A DNA stretch of 64,000 bases from the NCBI GenBank assembly GCA_913055685.1, contig CAJXKC010000002.1:558001-622000 (forward strand). The letters run 5' to 3'. This DNA comes from an uncultured Flavobacteriales bacterium. Its GTDB lineage: Bacteria; Bacteroidota; Bacteroidia; Flavobacteriales; Schleiferiaceae. The position numbers and the translations under genes are program-made. The notes under the pieces are model-generated. The model was given only the letters and a program-made list of their open reading frames with translations, made no database searches and was not told the origin of the DNA. Shown here one piece after another: positions 10,161-60,655 of the stretch. The first letter of the stretch is position 1; every line of letters starts with the position of its first letter.

Positions 10161-12059
10161 TTGACCAAGGCACGGGAAATACTCAAGCAGTACTGGCATT
10201 TTGATCAATTTCGGCCTTTACAGGAAGACATTGTTAATGCCGCTTTAGAAGGCAAAGATGTGTTAGCCTTACTCCCTACCGGTGGTGGTAAATCCATTTG
10301 TTTTCAGGTGCCTAGCATGGCTCAAGATGGCTGTAGCATTGTGATTTCTCCGCTTATAGCCCTTATGACCGATCAGGTTGAGAACCTTAAAAAAAGAGGT
10401 ATTTCTGCCATAGCCATAAACTCAAGTTTAGATAGTAATCAAAGGGAGCTTGCCTTGCATAATGCCGCTAATGGCTATTACAAGTTTATCTACCTTTCCC
10501 CTGAAAGCCTCGAATCGGAGCGCTTACTGCATCGCCTAAGCTTTGTACGAGTTAATCAAATTGTAGTAGATGAGGCTCACTGTATTTCCCAGTGGGGCTA
10601 CGATTTCCGACCTGCTTATCTAAATATATCTAAGTTAAGAGACCTCTTCCCGGAAATTCCCTGTCTAGCCCTAACCGCTACCGCTACCGAAGCGGTGGCC
10701 CTTGATATTCAGGAAAAACTCAAATTTAAGGAGGCGGCGTCTTTTTTCCGCAAGAGCTTTGAAAGACCCGAGTTAGCTTATAATGTTTTGCACATCGAGG
10801 CTAAATCTGAGCGTCTATTAGAACTACTCCGTAAAATTCCTGGAAGCGCCTTGGTTTATTTGCGCAACCGAAAAGCGACAGTAGAAATAGCTCGTTGGCT
10901 GATGGATATGGGGGTTTCGGCCGACTATTACCACGCGGGCTTAGCCTTAGAGGAAAGACAGCAGAAGCAAACTAAGTGGATTAATGGTAAAACCCGCTTA
11001 ATGGTTTGCACCAATGCCTTTGGGATGGGAATCGACAAGGCGGATGTACGATTGGTGATACACCTGGATCTTCCAGATTCATTAGAAGCCTATTTTCAGG
11101 AAGCAGGCCGAGCCGCAAGGGATGGCCGTAAAGCATTTTCCTTTGTACTTGTAGGACCGCATGATGCGGAGTTGTTGCGTAAAAAACATTTAGAGGGCTT
11201 TCCCGAACGCGAAGAAGTAACTAGGGTTTACCGCGCCTTGCTCAATTACCTTCAAATTGGAATTGGAAGTGCCGAAGGAAGTAGTTATGACTTTGATTTA
11301 GAGATGTTTGCCAAGCAATATCGCCTTAAATCAGGTCGCGTCTATCGCTGTCTCCAAATCCTTCAGAAAGAAGGTATCATAGAATTAAATGAAAAGGGAC
11401 AGTATTTCTCTAGACTATTCTTAAAAGCAGATCGACGCACCTTGTATGATTATCAATTACGCAATCCGGAACTAGATCGACTTCTGAAGGTTTTGATGCG
11501 CTCTTATGGCGGAATGGACCTAGACTATGTGCGAATCCAAGAAAACACTCTCGCTGCTCGATTAGACACCAGTACCTATAAAGTAAAACAGGCTTTAAGA
11601 CATTTGGCCAACCACGGACTAGCCGAATACCAAGAGGCCAGCGAGAAATCTAAAATTATTTTACTCCAAGAACGCCAGGATTTTAGCAACTTACAATTAA
11701 GTGAAGCACACCTGGAAAGGCGCAAAGCGGAAATCGAGTATCGGATTGAGGCTGTTTTAAAATTTATAGCTAATGATGGTACTTGTCGACTAAAGAAGCT
11801 GCTAGCTTATTTCGGAGAGCGTAAAACTGATGATTGCGGACAATGCGATGTCTGCCGAAGGAGAAAACAGAAGTCCAGCCTCGATAGCTATCGAAAAGAA
11901 ATAAAGGAAATCCTTAAGGGAAAGCCTTTGGAATTAAGAAATCTTGCGGATCAATTCGAAAACAAAGTCTTGTTTTCGGAAGCCCTAAGGCGTTGTTTAG
12001 AATTAGAAGAAATTTCACAAAAAGGCTCAACTCTATATTTAAAAGGACCTAGCGAGTAG
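10161..12059 (+). CDS. recQ: ATP-dependent DNA helicase RecQ (TTG start)
   Basis: A 632-residue superfamily 2 helicase. Motif I is LPTGGGKS (38-45), motif II is VVDEAHCISQWGYDF, motif III is LTATAT, and the helicase C domain carries AFGMGIDKADVR and QEAGRAARDG. A RecQ-type zinc-binding region with CGQCDVC follows. The C-terminus is a short winged-helix-like segment; no clear HRDC domain is seen. The only start that keeps the conserved N-terminus is a TTG one base after the upstream stop. Members unwind DNA in recombination and fork repair. Confidence 0.92.
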   Translation: MTKAREILKQYWHFDQFRPLQEDIVNAALEGKDVLALLPTGGGKSICFQVPSMAQDGCSIVISPLIALMTDQVENLKKRGISAIAINSSLDSNQRELALHNAANGYYKFIYLSPESLESERLLHRLSFVRVNQIVVDEAHCISQWGYDFRPAYLNISKLRDLFPEIPCLALTATATEAVALDIQEKLKFKEAASFFRKSFERPELAYNVLHIEAKSERLLELLRKIPGSALVYLRNRKATVEIARWLMDMGVSADYYHAGLALEERQQKQTKWINGKTRLMVCTNAFGMGIDKADVRLVIHLDLPDSLEAYFQEAGRAARDGRKAFSFVLVGPHDAELLRKKHLEGFPEREEVTRVYRALLNYLQIGIGSAEGSSYDFDLEMFAKQYRLKSGRVYRCLQILQKEGIIELNEKGQYFSRLFLKADRRTLYDYQLRNPELDRLLKVLMRSYGGMDLDYVRIQENTLAARLDTSTYKVKQALRHLANHGLAEYQEASEKSKIILLQERQDFSNLQLSEAHLERRKAEIEYRIEAVLKFIANDGTCRLKKLLAYFGERKTDDCGQCDVCRRRKQKSSLDSYRKEIKEILKGKPLELRNLADQFENKVLFSEALRRCLELEEISQKGSTLYLKGPSE

Positions 12060-14223: not shown

Positions 14224-14493
14224 ATGAACAAAGCTGATCTTATTGACGCTATGGCTGCGGAAGCAGGAATTTCTAAAGCTGCTGCTAAAAAAGCATTAGA
14301 CGCCTTTACCGGTAAAGTAACTGATACTCTTGCTTCAGGTGGTCGTGTATCTTTAGTTGGTTTCGGAACCTTCTCTACTTCTCAGCGCTCTGCTCGCGAG
14401 GGTCGTAACCCACAAACTGGCCAAACCATCAAAATTCCAGCAAAAACAGTTGCTAAATTTAAAGCTGGTTCTGAGCTTAACTCTAAGCTCTAA
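14224..14493 (+). CDS. HU-family DNA-binding protein
   Basis: 89 residues from the ATG at 14224, where the conserved HU start MNKADLIDAMAAEAGISKAA begins. An ATG 24 bases upstream would add eight residues that the family lacks. The DNA-binding arm region GFGTFSTSQRSAREGRNPQT and the following proline-containing IKIPAKTVAKFKAG are complete. HU bends and compacts DNA as a dimer. It has its own strong promoter and a UUCG-loop terminator, so it is monocistronic. Confidence 0.93.
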   Translation: MNKADLIDAMAAEAGISKAAAKKALDAFTGKVTDTLASGGRVSLVGFGTFSTSQRSAREGRNPQTGQTIKIPAKTVAKFKAGSELNSKL

Positions 14494-56972: not shown

Positions 56973-59369
56973 ATGTGGCGATCCTATTTAAAAACTGCTT
57001 GGCGCAACCTCTGGAAAGCACCTCTATTCACGCTTATTAATCTAAGCGGACTCATTACCGCTCTCTGCAGCTTTGCCCTAATTGCCCTCTACTTGCAAGA
57101 CGAGTATTCCTACGATCGATATCATCACGATTATGAGAATACATACCGTTTATGGGAGGAGCTCGATTTTGAAGGAGCAGGAGAACGTAGTTCCAGCATG
57201 CAGTTTCCAGTGGGACCCGCCCTATTAAACGACTACCCGCATCTTATTGAAGACGTGGTGCGCTTTTTCAATTTTCAAAAGCCCATCTATACCATTAAGG
57301 TAGAGGATCAAATGTTTAATCAGGAAAAGGTATTCTTTACTGATACCGGTGTTTTTAAGATCTTCAATTGGCCTTTATTAGCGGGAGATCCCGAAACGGC
57401 ACTGGATAAACCACAGTCTATTGTCCTAGATAGCGAATTGGCGCAAAAATTCTTCGGTAATGAGGACCCTATTGGTAAGGAGTTAATTATCGAAAGGGGT
57501 GTTCCCTTAAAAGTAACTGGAATAATGGCTCCAGTGCCCTCGCAAACGCATTTTCAACCTAAGGCATTGATAAGCTTTAGCACTTTAGCAGCCTATTTTG
57601 GTCCCGATCTGCAAGCCAATAATTGGGTGTGGAATCCGGCCTGGACCTATATCCATTTCAAAGAGCAAGGTGCTAAAGCCGAATTAGAAGCGCAATTCCC
57701 TAGCTTCATTCAGAAGTATTACCCCGACTTCATGCGCGATCAGACTGAGTTTAGCTTGATGCCGATTGCTGATATTCACCTTGAGTCACATTTGGAATAT
57801 GAATTAGAGGAAAATCATCATCGTTCCGACCTCTACATCTTGGCCACCATGGCCTTAATTATACTCATTATTGCCATTATCAACTTTACTAATTTGGCTA
57901 CTGCTCGCAGCACAGGGCGAGCTCGGGAGGTTGGTGTGCGCAAAACCTTGGGCGCCAATCGTAGTCAGCTTATCCAACAGTTTTTAGGGGAATCCATTTT
58001 GCAGAGCCTTATGGCGGCTATCATTTCGCTAGGACTATTAGCCTTAGTTCTGCCATTGTTTAACAGTTTAGCCCAGGTAAATTTAGCTTACGCTGATTTA
58101 TGGAAAGGCCCTGCCCCCTATGTCTTGCTATCCACTAGCATTTTATTGGGATTCTTAGCTGGCCTCTACCCTGCCTTTTACCTCTCTGCCTTTGAGCCGC
58201 AATTAGTTCTAAAAGGAGGCGCGGTAAAACGTGGCAAAAACCTATTAGGTAAAGTATTAGTGGTCTTTCAATTTGTCCTTAGTGCGGTCTTGATTATTGC
58301 CACCCTTACGGTAAATGAGCAGTTTAGCTTTATGCAGGAAAAAGACTTGGGTTTTGATGAGGAGCAGGTAGTAGTAATGAGCACTAAGCCGAAGCTAATA
58401 CCCCAAATCGAAGCCATTCGAGCCGAATTACTCAAAAGCCCTAATATCGAAGCCTTTACGGTGATGAACGACATCATAGGCGAGGATCATAATGTTTTTG
58501 AATACAATTACGGGGGTATGCCGGCGGGCCAATGGCAGTACCTCCCTACTCTAGTGGTAAACGAGGATTTCGTTAAAACCATGGGGCTGGAAATAATTGC
58601 CGGACGCGATTTGAACCGGGATATTAAATCCGACGATACCGCAGCGGTATTGGTAAATGAAACCTTGGTACGTGAAATGGGCTGGGGCAGCCCCGAAGAA
58701 GCTCTCGGTCAGCGTATGACCACCCCAAGGGGTCGCGAGCGTGTGGTCGGTGTTTTAAAGGATTTCCACTACGTTTCTCTTAAAGAGCCGATCCGACCTT
58801 TTGTTTTGGACATGATTGCCGGTGGTTTTTGGATCCAAGAATTTGCCATTCGCATAAAAGCGGGTAAAACTGAGGCGGCATTAGCGGATTTAAAGGAAGT
58901 ATGGCAGGCTTTTGCCCCCGAATTCCCCTTCGATTACTTCTTTCTGGAAGATCGTTTAGATCGCCTATATGAAAACCAAGACACCTTACGCAAACTGGTA
59001 GCACTCTTCTCTCTTATCGCCTTAATCATTTCTGCGATCGGACTCTTTGCCCTTAGCTCCTTAAGTATTGCTCAGCGTACCAAGGAAATTGGTATTCGCA
59101 AGATTTTAGGTGCGGAAGCGCCCCAATTGATTCAATTGCTCTCTAAAGAGTTTTTAAGTCTGGTTATTATCGCCTTGCTTATTGCTAGCCCCTTATCCTA
59201 TTGGCTGCTTAACAATTGGCTGCAAAGTTTTGCTTATCACATTGACTTCTCTTGGTGGAACGTAGCCCTAGCCGCCATTTTGGCCTTGGCTATAGCGCTT
59301 TTAAGCATGTCATATCACTTAACGAAGGTCTTGCGCAGTGACCCAGTACAGAGCATTCGCTATGAGTAA
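56973..59369 (+). CDS. MacB-type ABC transporter permease 2
   Basis: 798 residues of the same double-length design: helix LKTAWRNLWKAPLFTLINLSG, MacB_PCD, FtsX block NFTNLATARSTGRAREVGVRKTLGANRSQ, and a second copy ending QRTKEIGIRKILGAEAPQL. It differs clearly from the preceding permease, so the two may form a heterodimer with one ATPase. It is the last gene of the operon; no rho-independent terminator follows, and the next DNA is the repeat tract. Confidence 0.88.
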   Translation: MWRSYLKTAWRNLWKAPLFTLINLSGLITALCSFALIALYLQDEYSYDRYHHDYENTYRLWEELDFEGAGERSSSMQFPVGPALLNDYPHLIEDVVRFFNFQKPIYTIKVEDQMFNQEKVFFTDTGVFKIFNWPLLAGDPETALDKPQSIVLDSELAQKFFGNEDPIGKELIIERGVPLKVTGIMAPVPSQTHFQPKALISFSTLAAYFGPDLQANNWVWNPAWTYIHFKEQGAKAELEAQFPSFIQKYYPDFMRDQTEFSLMPIADIHLESHLEYELEENHHRSDLYILATMALIILIIAIINFTNLATARSTGRAREVGVRKTLGANRSQLIQQFLGESILQSLMAAIISLGLLALVLPLFNSLAQVNLAYADLWKGPAPYVLLSTSILLGFLAGLYPAFYLSAFEPQLVLKGGAVKRGKNLLGKVLVVFQFVLSAVLIIATLTVNEQFSFMQEKDLGFDEEQVVVMSTKPKLIPQIEAIRAELLKSPNIEAFTVMNDIIGEDHNVFEYNYGGMPAGQWQYLPTLVVNEDFVKTMGLEIIAGRDLNRDIKSDDTAAVLVNETLVREMGWGSPEEALGQRMTTPRGRERVVGVLKDFHYVSLKEPIRPFVLDMIAGGFWIQEFAIRIKAGKTEAALADLKEVWQAFAPEFPFDYFFLEDRLDRLYENQDTLRKLVALFSLIALIISAIGLFALSSLSIAQRTKEIGIRKILGAEAPQLIQLLSKEFLSLVIIALLIASPLSYWLLNNWLQSFAYHIDFSWWNVALAAILALAIALLSMSYHLTKVLRSDPVQSIRYE

Positions 59370-59410
59370 TTAAAGGCATTACCACCTTAGAGCTTTGTAT
59401 TTCAATGCGT

Positions 59411-59487
59411 TAGACCTTAAGCTGTAGCGCTCAGACTTTATCCCAAGGCGCTCAGACTTTATCCAAGGACGCTCAGACCTTGTCCCA
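59411..59487 (+). repeat. Four tandem 21-bp degenerate repeats
   Basis: The core AGAC recurs with its central A at 59414, 59435, 59456 and 59477, exactly 21 bases apart. The middle two units share GCGCTCAGACTTTATCC; the fourth reads CGCTCAGACCTTGTCCCA. The first unit is more diverged. Confidence 0.75.
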
Positions 59488-59587
59488 TTATAGCTATGCT
59501 TTTAGCCACTATAGCTTTGCTAGTGCAAAAGTAGAGGGCTCATTTCATCCATCAACACTATAGACAATGTCCAGCCCTACAAGCAAA

Positions 59588-59675
59588 GGCATCCCATGCC
59601 TATATCGACTTCCTCCATTACCTGAACCCTAGGCATCCCAAGCCTGGTAAGACTTCATCCCTTGGCTAGTTCAAT
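59588..59675 (+). repeat. 44-bp direct repeat, two copies
   Basis: Copies begin at 59588 and 59632. Both start GGCATCCCA(T/A)GCCT and continue with GACTTC(C/A)TCC; later bases diverge. 44 is twice 22, so this is likely part of the same 21-22 bp repeat family. Confidence 0.6.
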
Positions 59676-60042
59676 AATCTCCTTAGGATATGCGGTATAT
59701 CTAATACCTCCATCCTACCTTTATATATAACTAATTAGGTTTTATATAGTAGGCCTTTCAAGGGAGTCCATGCCGCATAAGACAGCATCCAAAAGGTCTT
59801 AAACGTTTAAGAATGTTCACTTTGATTTCATCCCATAATTGCCTGATCCTGGTCCTTAAAGTCCTTATACATTACCCTATATAAAGGTCGATTTGCACCC
59901 ATTTAAGCAGCCCTTTCCACAAGAAGACGCCTTAAGCTATCCCAGGCACCATGCGGCTTTTGGCTATTTAGTCAATAAACTTTTCCTTTTATCCTTTCGG
60001 AGGCCTATAAATTTGAAATGTGTCTTTTCAATTGAAAGAATT

Positions 60043-60245
60043 AGACCTTCTCCTATGCTAGTACAGACCTTCTCCTATGCTAGTACAGACCTTCCCCCAT
60101 GGTTTCATGACCTTTCCCAAGCTTGTTCGGACCCCTTAAAACGCCACTGGGGACCCTATAATATCGACGCTCCTGGTACTTCCAAAGGATATTCCGAACT
60201 TGGGCAGCGGACCATTGGACCTCTTCCTAAAACGAAGCGGACCTT
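60043..60245 (+). repeat. 22-bp periodic (A/G)GACC array
   Basis: The A of (A/G/T)GACC falls at 60045, 60067, 60089, 60110, 60131, 60153, then 60219 and 60241 with weaker matches in between near 60175 and 60197. Spacing is 21-22 bases throughout. The first two units are identical (AGACCTTCTCCTATGCTAGTAC); later ones keep mainly the GACC core. Confidence 0.7.
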
Positions 60246-60260
60246 TTAATATCATGAGGG

Positions 60261-60655
60261 CTACCCTTCCTCTACTTCATCAGCATGGCTTCTTAGGATC
60301 TTCAATACCCTTCGGTACATGGCTTCCGATAAGCTCCAATTATAGCCTTCGAAGTCTACGCTGTTCGTAAACTGGATTAGCACAACATCTATGTCCTCAT
60401 GGTAAAAGGCTAAGGTCTGATAACCTGGTATAAGTCCACTATGACCACTAGGATACAAGGAGTTATAAAGTGCTTCTTCCTCCGAGTTCCTAAAGGCGGA
60501 CCCATCGTTTAAGGCCCTAATAAAGGAGGCTATATCAGCGGCACTAGCCTACATTGAACCAAAGGTTACAGTTCCTCTATGAAATTAATCCATTTAAAAC
60601 CTCGCTAGAGTTTCCATATAGCTTTAGCTGATAGAGTCCTTTCTAGACAATAATA
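60261..60655 (-). pseudogene. Decayed serine hydrolase (beta-lactamase family) remnant
   Basis: On the minus strand a C-terminal serine-hydrolase segment is recognisable: GSM, then a TAG stop (60551-60549) where Tyr or a similar residue is expected, then ASAADIASFIRALNDG, and further on the GHSGLIPGYQTLAFYHEDID motif, which corresponds to the HxG-type active-site region of class C beta-lactamase relatives. Upstream bits continue only in other frames (LYGNSSEVLNGLIS) with more stops, and the catalytic SxxK half is missing. It is therefore a truncated, frameshifted remnant. Confidence 0.75.

Follow-up and report, generated by a model that had tools for sequence, protein, structure and literature searches.

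Plasmid iterons and partition (parC/parS-like) arrays consist of direct repeats about two helix turns apart, next to the gene that encodes their binding protein. A second point of comparison comes from Porphyromonas gingivalis, which we take to belong to the same phylum as the organism studied here. The nearest described repeat that we found is BrickBuilt of that species, characterized, in the part of its published account drawn on here, as a minisatellite of 23-nt units within a miniature transposable element, with 19 copies that share one sequence, 0-11% mismatches within an element, a leader and a tail with small inverted ends, and promoter activity (PMC4596501). A literature search yielded no description of arrays like those reported below, which is weak evidence of absence because subscription papers lay mostly outside its reach.

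The locus in question, tract A, lies in a window (the whole stretch of DNA analysed, 64,000 nucleotides, G000 C2:558001-622000) of genome G000, which comprises 2.96 Mb in 8 contigs; the labels ORF1, ORF2 and tracts A to F are defined in this analysis. The phylum surveyed is taken to be Bacteroidota on account of its gene families (SusC-like receptor, Por sorting domain, HU-HIG). The arrays to which we relate tract A appear analogous to iteron and partition arrays in having direct two-turn repeats beside one gene, ORF1, but no replication initiator or partition motor is common to the 22 ORF1 regions surveyed; unlike for iterons, plasmid records contained no ORF1 relative in single-protein searches, and within a single chromosome the copies differ in unit sequence. 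At tract A itself the adjoining gene encodes an FtsX/MacB permease rather than an initiator or motor. Like BrickBuilt, with its up to ~23 units, the arrays are intergenic, dispersed and made of head-to-tail, two-turn-like units without spacers, but their units measure 20-22 bp rather than 23 nt, differ at about half of their positions and have their own sequence at each locus; no inverted ends were found in A, C, E or F, and the arrays have a partner gene, of which the part of the BrickBuilt account drawn on here makes no mention (PMC4596501). Tract A lacks both the inverted-repeat ends and the 23-nt unit with at most 11% mismatches given for BrickBuilt in that part of the account (PMC4596501).

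Periodicity and setting of tract A

A preliminary description made from the sequence had reported a degenerate 21-22 bp repeat at 59405-60245, and the periodicity is confirmed: at lags 20-23 the interval holds 63 identical 5-mer pairs, whereas 2,000 dinucleotide-preserving shuffles averaged 4.4 such pairs and never exceeded 17. The same description had named a lack of self-similarity over shuffled sequence as grounds for rejection, and across 59370-60260 there is a clear excess (105 5-mer pairs in lag bins 20-23, 42-45 and 63-67; maximum 33 in 300 shuffles). A tandem-repeat search, proposed there as a check, was made with Tandem Repeats Finder, which placed the two top-scoring of its 18 rows for the window inside tract A (Table 1), and in a scan of the eight window gaps of at least 250 bp between ORFs of at least 100 aa, the gap in tract A scored z 12.1 and the seven others z -0.5 to 1.3.

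Two blocks with regular units enclose a middle with a periodicity of its own of z 4.8 (Table 1). The four exact 21-bp units of the preliminary description are all found in the left block, and its ten-step (A/G)GACC series is in place in the right block, where 9 of the 10 units are spaced 21 or 22 bp, although the units at 60174 and 60196 lack the initial GACC. What had been called a 44-bp direct repeat is a pair in the middle for which 44 bp is the correct offset but the repeated length is 33 nt. A 40-unit chain can be drawn through the whole tract with 37 units scoring above zero, a figure that overstates the middle because the chain was fitted to tract A itself.

Tract A is non-coding, with stops in all six frames. 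Promoters and terminators do not exceed shuffles, no inverted repeats occur in 59300-60300, and no Rfam match was obtained up to E 1. A CRISPR array was considered and rejected: the units abut at 21-22 bp and differ widely, without unique spacers between near-identical repeats.

The permease gene precedes the tract, and there is no sign that the tract has a role in that operon; of the export operon and the dead gene to which the earlier account had drawn attention, neither has a demonstrated part, and tracts B, C and F adjoin other kinds of genes. The last gene of the operon has no close ortholog in congeners (best identity 36%), and a contig scan found two distant loci at 35%. The dead-gene region consists of a 65-aa ORF and broken frames; for the ORF, Pfam gave nothing at 0.01 and PDB a single match, at E 0.73.

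Table 1. Positions of tract A, its relatives in genome G000 and neighbouring features. Positions without a prefix are those of the window.
Feature	Position	Strand	Description
Tract A, left block	59412-59496	+	Four units, 21 bp apart, GACYTTnTCCCA type; unit starts 59413, 59434, 59455, 59476
Tract A, middle	59497-60042	+	Weak periodicity, probably decayed; holds the 33-nt pair
33-nt pair	59587 and 59631		76% identical, 44 bp apart
Tract A, right block	60043-60262	+	Ten units 21-22 bp apart, units 1 and 2 identical over 22 bp; unit starts 60044, 60066, 60088, 60109, 60130, 60152, 60174, 60196, 60218, 60240
Tandem Repeats Finder row	59427-59487		Period 21, 2.9 copies
Tandem Repeats Finder row	60043-60101		Period 22, 2.7 copies
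Model R2 matches in tract A	60044-60078 and 60088-60118		
Dead-gene region	60261-60655		65-aa ORF at 60261-60458, broken frames
HU-like gene	14224-14490		One of two plain HU-like genes of the genome
Tract B	C1:742379-742742		22-bp units, GACCTTTCCCCATGA type
ORF1-B	L032 8161-8955 (gene at C1:743160)		264 aa
Tract C	C1:1533974-1534577		~23 units of 22 bp
Toxin-antitoxin neighbourhood of C	L078 6776-7463 and 7940-8600		HigB_toxin with HTH_3
Array E	L139 181-440		Clean array, GGGGAAGTCTGTAGCTCGTGC
Array F	C1:1304035-1304330 (L296 7900-8400)		Orphan relative of array E
Toxin-antitoxin neighbourhood of F	L296 7850-8400 and 8714-9299		HigB-like_toxin with HTH_3
Other tandem repeats on C5	L079 6380-6880 and 9600-9700; L116 3400-4460		

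Relatives of tract A and the partner gene ORF1

A search of the rest of the genome for the consensus, as had been proposed, did find relatives, tracts B and C. The pattern AGACCTTNTCCCA, with one mismatch allowed, occurs at 28 places in G000 against 9 for the reversed pattern, and four of the 28 cluster in tract B; tract C was found by a 36-nt model from A and B. The model was rebuilt from B and C only, as R2, to avoid circularity, and among the 150 of its 978 first-look candidates in G000 that were scored it finds B and C themselves, a pair of places in tract A (E 1.7 and 6.5) and a single place elsewhere (E 8.3); over 864 kb, three of its four matches fall in tract A. A profile from 40 units of B and C scores 69.2 on tract A, against maxima of 19.0 in 300 shuffles and 15.8 in 1,720 background pieces, and 23.4 on tract D, which is of another type, a score reached by 1 of 300 shuffles. 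Applied to the parts of tract A, the hold-out profile gives 35.4 for the left block (maximum 13.8 in 300 shuffles) and 62.0 for the right block (maximum 15.3 in 300), but the middle (59488-60042) is marginal and near chance, 13 of 300 shuffles reaching its score. A repeat over the whole of 59405-60245, as first described, is therefore solid in its two blocks and marginal between them, and the earlier suggestion of a decayed minisatellite suits this worn middle.

It is the profile that carries the kinship, since blastn at E 0.01 matches tract A to neither B nor C. The A-and-B model found nothing in six congeners, where the B type is missing, and one weak match each (E 0.04-0.41) in five other genomes of 39 searched. 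Tract A has direct units of 20-22 bp above shuffles, its middle being marginal, and its unit sequence is found by both the hold-out model and the profile from B and C; judged by its sequence, it is very probably a relative of the ORF1-linked arrays described next.

Array B lies 5' of ORF1-B, array D lies 5' of a gene on C5 that is 30% identical to ORF1-B, and a third ORF1 copy of G000, on C6, has array E. ORF1 proteins are roughly 225-300 aa long, and their bodies have a mean pI of 6.9 (several sequences being partial). A search with ORF1-B found homologs in 3 of 88 genomes of the family (three copies in G000, six in G054 and three in G055), and an ORF1 profile run over 395 genomes of the phylum found at least 11 carriers, G000 among them, with at least 19 loci outside G000 in at least six further families. 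The total is thus at least 31 loci, 12 from the family search and at least 19 new ones from the phylum scan. No ORF1 match was obtained in Pfam, NCBIfam, PHROG or PDB at E 0.001, and no DNA-binding domain is recognisable, the best Pfam match among 10 aligned members being E 0.0036, in one member. Viral contigs, plasmid records and phages contained no ORF1 relative by single-protein searches, which reach close relatives only, and it is within that reach that a phage or plasmid origin of ORF1 was set aside.

An array of 20-22 bp precedes ORF1 in 25 of the 27 loci tested, of the at least 31 found, when the 1,500 bp before the start of the profile match are folded at fixed periods; before partial ORF1 matches these 1,500 bp include some ORF1 coding sequence, and the distances there are too large. 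The best period is 21 bp in 23 of the 27 loci, 22 bp in one (B) and 20 bp in one, and the two-helix-turn period read from tract A is in this way borne out for the array class; at the remaining two (G445 and G147) no array exceeds shuffles. Left out of the 27 were L214, L217, L218 and L219, where no array was seen and the contig holds 459, 115, 146 and 0 bases 5' of the frame. Counted separately, 8 of the 12 family-level loci have an array at z of at least 17, the other four having 0 to 459 bases 5' of the frame, and 16 of the 19 loci outside G000 have a strong periodic array (z of at least 12.5) within 3.4-3.7 kb; in a control of 120 random 3.5-kb pieces from two sampled genomes the best z was 10.0 and the median 4.6.

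In 349,138 bases round 22 of the at least 31 ORF1 genes, all 22 peaks of period 20-22.5 (z of at least 11) lie near ORF1, 19 of them within 1,005 bp 5' and three within 715 bp 3'; near ORF1 there are also five peaks of other periods, and two regions have no peak at all. The control for array frequency covers the ORF1-bearing regions and sampled pieces of two genomes. ORF1 is the sole gene family common to all 22 regions, the next being present in five. A second array of 21-22 bp was observed 3' of three ORF1 genes (L249, L254 and L255), 112-715 bp away.

The position of most arrays 5' of ORF1 (19 of the 22 peaks) would also fit an operator array for another regulator that controls ORF1, with tract A as a stray copy. 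The neighbouring ORF2, which by eye resembles a helix-turn-helix protein, is an example of such a regulator, and homologs lie near ORF1 at the three G000 loci and at loci of G054 and G055. We nevertheless regard this reading as quite unlikely: ORF2 is present in only 4 of the 22 regions, and Pfam assigns no domain to two ORF2 proteins and finds only weak matches in a third (BetR, E 0.05). Moreover, three of the arrays are on the 3' side of ORF1, no ORF1 adjoins tracts A, C and F, and ~16 units are many for an operator.

That tract A is instead a miniature transposable element with an internal minisatellite, after the manner of BrickBuilt, is highly improbable. Intergenic and dispersed arrays, units of 21-23 nt and short-unit families within one genome would agree with such an element as far as the part of the BrickBuilt account drawn on here goes (PMC4596501), but A has no inverted repeats, none of at least 14 nt was found round C, E or F, the one 23-nt pair near B is 78% complementary, A, B and C share no flanks, and the array class has a partner gene. 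For tract A this candidate was rejected on the missing inverted ends in A, C, E and F and on the fact that the 891-bp tract has no second DNA match in its own genome at E 0.001.

Tracts B, D and E have ORF1 within ~1 kb, but tract A does not, and no ORF1 gene or clear remnant lies beside it; the search for remnants also gave chance-level matches far off, the best (10326-10658, E 6.6e-4) being 49 kb away. Because no ORF1 adjoins, we call tract A an orphan relative rather than a complete ORF1-array locus.

Spacing and sequence within the arrays

Across 25 arrays the median number of units is 16 and the median pairwise unit identity is 0.52, and unit sequence varies from locus to locus. Of 418 spacings, 362 equal the modal period of their array and 44 more are one base off, although the chaining used favours the modal spacing and so inflates the first figure. 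In most of these arrays, neighbouring units are hardly more similar to each other than units far apart. We read this pattern as pointing to constraint on the spacing and on a few positions per unit, rather than to recent slippage.

A neutral or selfish satellite, spread by slippage or unequal exchange and copied about the genome, would make ORF1 a mere neighbour and tract A a dying minisatellite. Several observations agree with it: units turn over fast between loci and are alike within an array, array G355_1 is nearly homogeneous (86% identity), the middle of tract A has decayed, and arrays E and F point to array-sized copying. Drift alone, however, does not fit the scarcely greater likeness of adjacent units in most of the 25 arrays, the exact links in spite of differences at about half of the positions, or the same period beside the same gene family in at least seven families of the phylum (that of the window genome included), and we consider a satellite of this kind unlikely.

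Arrays E and F resemble each other across the array and at both edges, but the likeness stops at the flanks, the best piece being 87.6% identical over 97 bp; array-sized copying without ORF1 therefore happens, by some route. The orphan arrays C and F both adjoin HigBA-type toxin-antitoxin genes, C lying 5' of HigB and F lying 3' of the antitoxin gene (Table 1).

Coevolution of ORF1 with unit sequence was examined and dropped. Three ORF1 pairs, at 95, 92 and 64% identity, have same-direction unit similarities of 1.00, 0.84 and 0.78, but the other three of the six pairs at 60% identity or more (60-71%) have no clearly similar units, two of them involving the one 20-bp array, and units are not clearly similar in pairs near 50% identity. 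Among distant pairs protein and unit similarity are weakly correlated, equally strongly on the opposite strand, which means that composition explains the correlation; agreement is thus confined to some close pairs.

A transcribed product, either a repeat-coding gene or a structured RNA, is extremely improbable. Seven codons span 21 bp, in 17 of the 25 arrays one frame or more stays open across eight units, and one array stretch (L222) folds better than its shuffles (z -2.49, 1/200). Against these points, every one of the six frames is interrupted by stops in tracts A, B and C, the codon-phase contrast over 23 arrays of 21 bp is at its null (p 0.45) and the period of the B type is 22 bp; of the 14 stretches, the remaining 13 fold no better than shuffles (z -0.71 to 2.65), and Rfam gave no match for 18 loci at gathering scores or, as noted, for tract A. 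A coding repeat was rejected on the stops and the codon-phase result, which also disposes of the old repeat-rich gene that had been suggested for tract A, and a structured RNA is not supported by the folding and Rfam results.

Within the 21-bp unit the AT content of 23 arrays shows a 7-bp modulation, with three rises and falls per unit, that was matched by none of 2,000 permutations; this is one of 20 tests, to which a further 70 were added without three near-duplicate arrays or arrays of periods other than 21. A 10.5-bp modulation of AT content is absent, and the bases themselves do not recur at lag 7.

A candidate binding platform and a second array system

In our judgement it is probable that tract A represents a partly decayed orphan array of the ORF1-B type and that the intact arrays are platforms on one face of the helix for a protein whose binding we infer. 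The two-turn period, the mostly single position relative to the gene, the differing sequence and the constant neighbour together suggest that sites are lined up along a single face of the DNA. Among the possibilities raised for tract A at the outset, a protein-binding array would best fit the class, in which spacing is kept, sequence differs and one gene family adjoins; for tract A itself it would apply to what is left of such an array.

A typical array would offer ~16 direct units at 21 bp, or two helix turns (22 bp in the B type, tract A included), to a protein that binds about once per unit on one helix face and touches its neighbours along the row of sites, so that a long nucleoprotein strip would form. 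ORF1 or a multimer of it would be the likeliest binder, acting in cis on the array of its own gene and in trans on the orphan ones, that is, at A and C for the ORF1-B type and at F for the ORF1-E type; tract A would then be a trans site of long standing whose middle is being lost. The gene is constant beside the arrays, and the unit sequence of each orphan array is that of one particular ORF1 copy (A and C match B, and F matches E), which makes ORF1 an economical candidate. The similar units of the ORF1 pairs at 95, 92 and 64% identity speak for it as well; against it stand the lack of a recognisable DNA-binding domain and the other pairs, whose units are not clearly similar. We put binding by ORF1 forward tentatively, as having slightly under an even chance.

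On a still more cautious footing, and from sequence comparison, we can envisage a patchy but widespread system in which ORF1 coats its own upstream array, one step per two turns, selection maintains the period while unit sequence turns over, and orphan arrays serve as further docking sites; this is plausible, though somewhat less likely than not. If true, such a system would be like a prokaryotic satellite whose length, not sequence, is kept. A protein family with no match in the curated libraries searched is tied to an array in 25 of 27 loci tested, and the period stays at two turns while the sequence does not; in this array class, how spacing is read can thereby be told apart from how sequence is read. 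A direct handle for experiments is provided by a single gene with its array and by natural orphan arrays that share its genome. Should ORF1 bind, the arrays would represent a bacterial nucleoprotein structure of a new kind; should it not, a cause yet to be found keeps a satellite next to a single gene family.

Short 22-bp arrays were also observed in the congeners G001-G005 (L171-L182), 3' of HU-HIG (PF18291) genes. They are often palindromic (AAACATGCTGATGTTT; TGACCGCGGTCA; TTTGC..GCAAA), and on the 3' side 9 of 12 loci have a best period of 22 bp and a tenth, clearly above shuffles, has 21 bp, with one locus marginal and one without an array, whereas on the 5' side none of the 12 has a best period of 21 or 22 bp. 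These arrays form a second gene-linked two-turn array system. Both systems combine a small multi-copy gene family with an adjoining two-turn array whose sequence differs between several copies, but the HU-HIG arrays are 3', short, often palindromic, of 22 bp and beside a gene with a known DNA-binding fold, whereas the ORF1 arrays are mostly 5' with ~16 units and ORF1 has no Pfam match. The congener arrays (AAACATGCTGATGTTT) were considered as the same system as tract A, and this was dropped: they go with HU-HIG genes, of which the window genome has no relative of the congener type at E 1e-5. One of its two plain HU-like genes, found by the HU-HIG model at 31.5 bits, lies in the window (Table 1).

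Contig C5 of G000, which carries array D, is rich in other tandem repeats (Table 1), of the CCTTCGTG type, a 24-bp CTGAGC type and TATGGT. TTCGTG-type repeats occur in other bacteria.
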